Shown here piece by piece: positions 23,836 through 64,000 of a DNA stretch of 64,000 bases. The position numbers and the translations under genes are program-made. Within the stretch, counting starts at the first letter, position 1. Every line of letters begins with the position of its first letter. Origin of the DNA: Utricularia gibba (Eukaryota; Streptophyta; Magnoliopsida; Lamiales; Lentibulariaceae); assembly GCA_002189035.1 (NCBI GenBank), contig NEEC01000020.1, forward strand, positions 806,001 to 870,000. Reading direction: 5' to 3'. The notes beneath the pieces were generated by a model, which did no database searches, was not told the DNA's origin, and saw only the letters and a list, made by a program, of their open reading frames with translations.

Positions 23836-24354
23836 TAAGGGTGATACATTTTCTCACACAATAAGATGAGAGTGACCAAATTTAAATAAATACATGAATA
23901 AATACATATGGAATAGTGAAAAACCATAGCTTTTTGCCGTTCAAAAGTTATCTCTTGTTCATGGAATCATTATTATTCACACTTTTCATAATCTCAACAA
24001 TAGCGTCTTCATGCCACACTGCAACTTGGAAGGAAACCAAAGAGCGTACAGTGATGAAGAGTATGTCAATCGATCACATCTGGACAGATGTTGAAATATA
24101 GAAAGAATAAGGAATGTCATCATGCACTTAAACTGGTGAACTAAGCGCTATAGCACGCCGGAACAAGGCCTCAGACAATCATAAGTGTCCTCTTCATGGC
24201 AAAGTCGGACAATGTAGGCAAATTTTGCATCATCATAGGCCAGATATGCAAGGTATATGGATAGAGTGTAGGGGCGGTGTGGGTATTCATTAGCTTGCTT
24301 ATGCTAGTAATGTAGAAGAAAGGGTACGCACCTTTTGGGTTTGGAGAAAGAAGT

Positions 24355-35770: not shown

Positions 35771-35967
35771 ATGCGAAAAAAATTTATTTATTATTTAAAA
35801 AAGAAAGAAAAAGAAAGAAGAATATTATGTAGGGGTTGTGAAGAAGAGGAGGGAGCTCCCTTCAGTCCAAGCACAGAGAAGAGGAGTGTGAAAATTCGTC
35901 TCCCGCATCATTCAGTCAGCGACACCAGGAGGCGGCACTCCGCCGTCTGGCGCCTTTGTCTGAATGA

Positions 35968-36408
35968 GCCGGCAGCGAGTTCATCTCCCCGCCCTCCCCC
36001 GTAACTGGACCCAAGGAAGCTCTCTCCCTCCCCAAACCCTCCAAAACGCCGCCATCCCTTTCTTTACCTGCACAACCCCATCCGATATCAAAGCTCTGTT
36101 TGCAGTTCCAGAGCTTAGCGCAGTTGGGAATGGAGATAAATGACATAAAAGAAGAAACTGAAATCACGAATTCCGGTTACGATAGGGGCGGAGGAGGAGG
36201 CAAGATGGTGAAGTTGTGCGTTTTCTGAGGAGACATGAAGGTGGGCTTAAGATCCTGGGCAGGAGGAGAGGATATCAAAGCTCTGTTTGCAGTTCCAGAG
36301 CTTAGTGCAGCTGGGAATGGAGATAAATGACACAAGAGAAGAAACTGAAATCAGGATTTCCGGTCCCGGGAGGCGAGGAAACAAGATGGTGAAGTTGTGC
36401 GTTTTCTG
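35968..36408 (+). other. Unidentified coding-like exon with tandemly duplicated 3' part
   Basis: An open frame from 35968 reads AGSEFISPPSPVTGPKEALS, continues Pro-rich (PAQPHP), then ISKLCLQFQSLAQLGMEIND and KIEETE-like IKEETEI, and ends with KMVKLCVF and a stop at about 36229. The part from 36084 is repeated with a 187-bp period from 36271. The second copy reads ISKLCLQFQSLVQLGMEIND, TREETEI and again KMVKLCVF plus the same stop at about 36408. The copies differ by substitutions and a net in-frame 6-bp difference, so the frame was kept after duplication. No family recognised. An AG acceptor candidate lies at the upstream end. Short minus-strand frames also overlap, so coding status is open. 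Confidence 0.4.
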
Positions 36409-61759: not shown

Positions 61760-62460
61760 AAACATCTGAACCTGCAACCAACAATCATGAGACATCTATC
61801 TATAAATGGTAGAAAGACATGTACATGTAACAATGTGAATGCGTTGTAGTTGGAATTACACATGCATTTTTCTATTTATGGGATGCGTCGATATGAACTA
61901 AGACATTTTTTTTTCATATTGGCTCGTTCAAGAACCATGAATTGTGTTTGAAATACTCAACACATTAAACAAGAAGGAAGGAAGAATAAGTAGTGGCATT
62001 TGGCATGAGAAGAAATCACATGTTGTGATTGATTATGAGCCATGTTCCTGACCAGCAAATGCTCCAATAAACTCTCCAAAGGTGCTAATCTGGTGCAAAT
62101 ACTTGTGCAGCAAGAGTGGATGTGGGAAATAGATCAAATAATAAATTAAAAAATTGGTTTGGAAAATATTTTAGGAAGCTTCAACTCTTTATCATGCCAA
62201 AGTTGCACTCGATGTTAATGAAAGAGCAAATGTGACAAGTTCAAAGTAATTTGGTAGCTTGGAATAAATTGATTAAGCAAACTAGAGTAGCAGATTAAAC
62301 ATCCATAATGGAATAAATTGGTTAACTTTATTTTTTGATTAAACATCAATAATCTTTTTAAATTTTAATTCTAGTTATATGTTATGTGTCAATTTTGTTT
62401 GAGTTTTAAGATTTTATATTGATTTTTACGTTTTGTTAATGTTTAGGTTGGAAAAAAAAG
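61760..62460. other. AT-rich intergenic DNA
   Basis: No gene recognised. Confidence 0.4.
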
Positions 62461-62469
62461 AAAACTCTT

Positions 62470-63480
62470 CACTTTTTTTTTTAAACAAAAAAGAAGTGAA
62501 GATGAGATTGAAGAAGTTTTTATTATAAAATTATTTCTAATCATACTTCAATTGCAATAGAAAATCAAGGTAGGATAATAAAGTCGTTTTCAACAATGTT
62601 GATTTAATGGTTTTCTTTGACTAGAGTATTTAAAAAATAAATAATAGGCATGTTTATTGGTTTCCTTGCTTCTTATTCAACAAGAGTGCACAAAAAGAGG
62701 ACGAACTCATGTTTTCACTATATGTATTTTCTTCAATTGGAAAAACATGAGTAATAATAGGAATTATTCTTTTTTGACTCATATAGATTCTGATTCATCA
62801 TCTTAGTACAATAAGATTGTAGATGATTGCCATGTTTTATTGAAACAATCTAGACACGGATTATATTATCAAAGTGCGCAATAAACAAGAAACTAAAGAC
62901 AATCGTTTATGTTTACAAGTTTCAGTGTCAGCAATTAGCTAGCTTGCATTTTAAGGATGTGACTTTCGTGATCATAATATTGAAAATGGAGATAATTTTA
63001 TTGATTTGATTGAACTTCTAGTAAGCTTCAATCCTGATATTGAAAATGTTGTGTTAGAGAAAACTTTACATAATATTAAATCCATATCACCTAACACTCA
63101 AAATCAAATTTTGGGTCTTTATGCAAGTACTATTTGAAAGAACATTTTTGAGAAGATTGAAGATTGAAAGTTTTCTATTAAAGCATCTTTAGTGATTTTC
63201 GAAAATGATGACATGGTTTCCTTTATTAAGTTTTCATGAGGAAATGGAATTTACTAAAAGTGATTTCCAAAATATAGAATTTACTCAAATTAATCATTTC
63301 CGTAAAAATAAAAGTGATTTCCGGAAAGCCATGTCAGCATTTCTGGAAATCACTAAAGATGCTTTTATTGTGTATGAAATTTGTAATATTTCTAAACAAG
63401 AACAAATAACATTGATAAACAAATTTTTTGATCACCCTCAACATTTAAAAAAACTGGCATGTTATTCTTATAGAACTCTT
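62470..63480 (+). pseudogene. hAT-family transposase remnant (TTF-type zinc finger / DUF4371)
   Basis: Pieces in order on the plus strand: FKQKRSEDEIEE (typical start) near 62485; a decayed LLKQSRH...SAQ block near 62840-62880; LAF-GCDFRDHNIENGDNFI, then DLIELLVSFNPDIENVVLEK, then SISPNTQNQILGLYAS near 62940-63135; NIFEKIED and KFSI near 63142-63178. After an inserted MITE, IVYEICNISKQEQITLI continues near 63367-63420. Several in-frame stops and shifts mean it is dead. The blocks match the DUF4371 transposase domain (FRGHDES, NFIELL, YTSP-IQKEIL, GDAKFCIIVDEA). Confidence 0.8.
63181..63364. mobile_element. MITE inserted in the hAT transposase remnant (184 bp)
   Basis: Terminal inverted repeats of 36 bp, 32 matching. 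Both begin AAGCATCTTTAGTGATTT when read inward. TTA target-site duplications lie at 63178-63180 and 63365-63367, as in PIF/Harbinger elements. Removing the element and one TTA makes the flanking transposase frame continuous (KFSI then IVYEIC). Confidence 0.9.
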
Positions 63481-64000
63481 GTTGGAAATGAAATATTGAT
63501 ATGTACATCGTATTGGCGCAGCATGATTTCAAACACCATGATGTTATCGTATGCTACATATTTATCCACAAAACCCAAATTCCATCAGTAACCTTATACG
63601 AAAAAATAAATGTAGCATATTTATCATTTTTAGGAAGGTTTAGGAAATTTTGTAGCGACTCTCCACACATGATCAGGATAACAAAAGCAGTTGTATTTGG
63701 GGAGAGTTTGCGGCATTCTGGTTCTGAAATTCAAGTTCTAATGTTAGTGAAAACTAGACGCAGAATGTTCTGTTAAAACATGTACAAAACATTGTTTTCG
63801 TGTCTTGTTAGAGATTGGATGAATAGGAAGTGGGTAAAAATTATTTGTATCATTTATCTATGACTTTAAAAACTGTTCTTTTATAGATGAAATTACAACA
63901 GCCAGATTCACATTTCTCACGCTTCTAACACTTGTCGAACTTTAGTATCATAAAATAACAAAGACTATGTCTTGTCTTACGCCAATGCTACGCATGATTA
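63480..64000. other. Flank of the hAT remnant
   Basis: Open but unrecognised frames to about 63776, possibly more decayed transposon. The remainder is AT-rich without a gene. Confidence 0.35.

Follow-up and report, generated by a model that had tools for sequence, protein, structure and literature searches.

We found that a DUF4371-type hAT copy in the window, the 64,000-nucleotide stretch of Utricularia gibba DNA analyzed here, is interrupted by a short inverted-repeat element. The element is almost certainly a Tourist-type MITE, an internal-deletion product of a PIF/Harbinger transposon, presumably mobilized in trans, that inserted at a TTA of the hAT copy. Direct reading of window positions 63178-63367 gives TTA (63178-63180), 184 bp (63181-63364, plus strand) and a second TTA (63365-63367), and the coordinates assigned by the first-pass annotation proved exact to the base. 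The 184 bp run from AAGCATCTTTAGTGATTT to AAATCACTAAAGATGCTT, the last bases being the exact reverse complement of the first. Terminal inverted repeats occupy 63181-63219 (plus strand) and 63326-63364 (minus strand), and the inverted arms show 86% complementarity across 43 nt. The 36-bp terminal repeats described earlier are present in imperfect form, with matches in 32 of the 36 outermost bp. TTA on both sides, short length, inverted repeats and no coding capacity are the traits of a Tourist-like MITE, and nothing points to a function of this copy. A 131-aa stop-to-stop frame (63196-63591, plus strand) spans the MITE into the hAT remnant and could be called by a gene finder; it probably arose by chance.

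As a single strand the MITE has a predicted fold of -65.3 kcal/mol (z -10), and none of 200 shuffled sequences folded as well. Plant MITEs are known to give rise to small RNAs, and the long hairpin of this nearly palindromic element might be taken for a source of small RNAs, either miRNA-like or siRNA. We consider this very unlikely: a palindromic MITE folds in this way without any selection, and positions 63181-63364 have no Rfam match, so that a miRNA precursor at the element was rejected. Elsewhere in the window, Rfam matches mark a full-length MIR159 microRNA precursor (35839-36034, minus strand, 116.8 bits) and the C/D box snoRNA SNORD34 (24164-24244, minus strand, 42.4 bits).

The Tourist-type MITE belongs to a family. 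Searched at the DNA level, the genome of the window (516 contigs, 100 Mb) yields relatives at at least about 40 places, with 72-100% identity. The first-pass annotation had proposed looking for identical TTA-flanked copies; a family flanked by TTA or TAA exists, and its other members are 72-87% identical to the window copy, none of them identical. We extracted 31 copies. In 25 of them both ends could be read, and in 17 of those 25 the two flanking triplets are identical (TAA in 10 and TTA in 7, in MITE orientation). By chance, any identical triplet would be expected in 1.9% of copies, and TTA or TAA on both sides in 0.1%. The family consensus is likewise 184 bp long. Divergence from this consensus ranges from 10 to 24% among the copies; the figure for the window copy is 10.3%, a closeness that may be an artefact of its having served as the query. 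The genome search found no nearly identical family copy (best 87%), and recent movement is thus unsupported; the family is old. A relative of 284 bp with TTA on both sides (L071:110-393; G000:C317:1525309-1525592) perhaps represents a longer subfamily. This MITE and PF04827 fragments are found twice on that contig, about 21.56 kb apart (G000:C317:1525303-1528025 and 1546866-1549588), with identical or near-identical scores, which suggests a local duplication.

The parent superfamily, left unnamed in the first-pass annotation, is PIF/Harbinger. Searching the genome with an 18-base terminal pattern, allowing up to 2 mismatches, yielded 60 matches as opposed to 6 for the reversed pattern used as a control, and led to two inverted pairs, L037 and L036. 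The first, L037 (G000:C328:274131-277442), is 3,312 bp long and has inverted ends with 48-nt arms (flank included) and TTA on both sides. It carries a decayed PF04827 transposase (276509-277057, 209.7 bits, four stops), upstream of which lies an ORF1-like reading, MDTRRLQSH*WCDEYKLI... The second, L036 (L036:528-7586; G000:C142:204827-211885), is 7,059 bp long, is likewise flanked by TTA on both sides and has the same ends as the MITE. Its reading MATRRLQSQRWYDEDKLI... resembles that of L037, which looks like the Myb/SANT-type ORF1 of PIF/Harbinger elements; a Pfam search of the L036 reading gave no match. L036 also contains a hAT transposase fragment (PF14372), a nesting in the reverse direction.

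Comparison with the full-size element shows how the MITE is built. Its positions 84-183, that is, the right 100 bp, match the 5' end of L037 at 89% identity, and in the family consensus this match extends over positions 51-183 (102 of 133). The left end of the MITE (about 52 bp) corresponds to the 3' end of L037, with 85% identity over positions 2-51. Because each part matches a different end, the MITE is a fusion, near position 51, of the two ends of an element, which is the classic structure of a deletion derivative; the roughly 30 bp nearest the join align weakly to L037. The MITE identity proposed by the first-pass annotation is therefore borne out by family copies, by TTA duplications and by ends common to transposase-bearing elements. 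That the MITE is instead of the Stowaway (Tc1/mariner) or hAT type is even less likely than a small-RNA source. Such an assignment could appeal to the TA within TTA and to the hAT nature of the host, but in 17 of the 25 readable copies the whole flanking triplet is TTA or TAA, and the full-size element with matching ends has a PF04827 transposase and TTA duplications.

PF04827 is abundant in this genome (151 matches). No intact transposase was found between MITE-type ends; where PF04827 copies do lie within such ends, they are interrupted by stops. One PF04827 match (G000:C413:5195597-5196193) lies in a 404-aa frame without stops; no matching MITE-type ends occur within 1.5 kb of it, and it is therefore no more than a candidate mobilizer. 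Three other candidates were rejected as transposase-bearing elements. The end at C317:1525309 belongs to the separate 284-bp MITE, and for the end at C413:2309131, near a PF04827 copy, a second end was not found. PF04827 fragments also lie between the paired ends at C451:3349043-3355238, but the triplets bordering that pair are not alike (ATC on one side, TTA on the other).

The host of the Tourist-type MITE is a hAT remnant on the plus strand. Its left part (62326-63180) contains stops and frame changes and shows about 72% DNA identity to relatives on contigs C451 (L076) and C1 (L042), and 66% to one on C3 (L038). Its in-frame translation, with stops masked, gives a match to Pfam PF14291 at E 5e-5 and 23.7 bits, short of the curated cut-off of 32.1. 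The genome-wide PF14291 search picks up the remnant at 25.2 bits, against the same cut-off, which L042 clears with 49.1 bits. The right part (63365-63418), beginning IVYEICNISKQEQITLINKFF..., is 78% identical to L076 over 54 bp and also aligns to L042 and L038. It is short: hAT homology stops at about 63418-63430, some 55-65 bp past the insertion, and a search of the genome returned no further copy of 63368-64000. At one motif position L038, L042 and L076 have Asp (GAT) and the window copy has Tyr (TAT); judging from the hAT RNase H fold, this Asp is a putative catalytic residue. The host is a relic today, because homology ends so soon past the site and because the motif Asp is Tyr; several stops are present as well. 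DUF4371 is counted among the hAT transposases and was described in 2014 as absent in plants (PMC3985635). In contrast, this plant genome has 11 PF14291 matches, nearly all with stops.

The insertion splits a hAT motif at KFSI/IVYE. In frame, the flanks read ...ED*KFSI up to the insertion and IVYEICNISKQEQ from there on; these translations, together with the alignments of the relatives, confirm the earlier placement of the site within KFSIIVYE of a DUF4371 hAT transposase. The added 187 bp (184+3) are not a multiple of 3, and the insertion thus shifted the frame. Excision leaving one TTA restores it, as had been claimed: the flanks then read KFSI/IVYEICNISKQEQ, and L038, L042 and L076 are continuous at this point. 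These three are the uninterrupted hAT copies that the first-pass annotation had suggested searching for, and each has a single TTA. The L038 empty site reads KFSIIVDETCDVAKQEQ without interruption, its left translated match running to 1983 and its right one starting at 1984. In L076 the left DNA match runs to 1238 and its right counterpart already starts at 1236; the overlap of exactly 3 bp corresponds to the duplicated TTA. The MITE is absent from all ten hAT loci compared.

An ancestral origin of the 184 bp within the hAT lineage, for example as an intron, agrees with gene halves that are in frame once the segment is left out, but this is the least likely alternative and is ruled out by the three empty paralogous sites, relatives of 66-72% DNA identity that lack the segment, and by the presence of the same sequence at about 40 unrelated places. 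The first-pass annotation had named an ancestral segment shared by related hAT copies as the finding that would contradict an insertion; we looked for it and did not find it.

Since the MITE lies within the hAT copy, it was certainly inserted after that copy existed, and the order given earlier, first hAT and then MITE, stands. The accompanying claim that the hAT copy was still recognizable at insertion is trivially true, as the copy is recognizable today, and adds little on dating. Decay of the host, through stops, the change from Asp to Tyr and loss of its right part, may have preceded or followed the insertion.

Together the data support a history in which a PIF/Harbinger DNA transposon underwent internal deletion long ago, giving rise to the Tourist-type MITE. 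By analogy with mPing and Pong, the MITE would then have been moved in trans by the PIF transposase and ORF1 protein of that transposon; it inserted at a TTA of the hAT copy, now a relic, and duplicated the TTA. According to published accounts, Tourist-type MITEs depend for their movement on a PIF/Harbinger transposase acting in trans together with ORF1; they insert at TTA or TAA and excise precisely via the duplications (PMC2836001, PMC4561436, PMC12595863). Each structural step agrees with the anatomy observed directly here: the MITE ends, the family, the target-site duplications, the empty sites and a kinship with transposase-bearing elements that spans both ends.

The case provides a base-exact, polarized insertion for which one genome contains both the empty sites and an element of the parent type, and is useful for annotating the repeat family. 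It is cleanly documented but ordinary, and leaves views of how MITEs work unchanged. Tentatively, and with some doubt, we suggest that (G/A)AGCATCTTTAGTGATTT ends mark an undescribed family of PIF/Harbinger elements and Tourist MITEs, in which hATs landed in some full-size copies and the MITEs landed in hATs. A literature search for the exact terminal sequence of the MITE returned no paper, a weak negative, as such termini are rarely present in searchable text.

Like the window MITE, the Tourist-like MITEs mPing of rice (with Ping and Pong), the PIF-related Tourists of maize and MITRAV/MtPH-A5 of Medicago are short, non-coding and bounded by inverted repeats and a TTA/TAA duplication, and have ends in common with transposase-bearing elements (PMC2213677, PMC12595863). 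For Medicago, ends of the ...GTTTG type are listed (PMC2213677), unlike the (G/A)AGCATCTTTAGTGATTT ends seen here. In comparison with known Tourist families, the window family is old and diverged. Pairs of an insertion and its related empty site are standard proof of insertion, and the RESites of PIF/Harbinger elements, paralogous sites without the element, follow the same logic as used here (PMC2213677), whereas our empty sites are hAT transposon paralogues. Likewise, Stowaway was discovered through a nested insertion, in the Tourist-Sb5 element of sorghum (PMC12595863); there the host is itself a Tourist element, whereas in the window one transposable element is nested in the coding remnant of a hAT.
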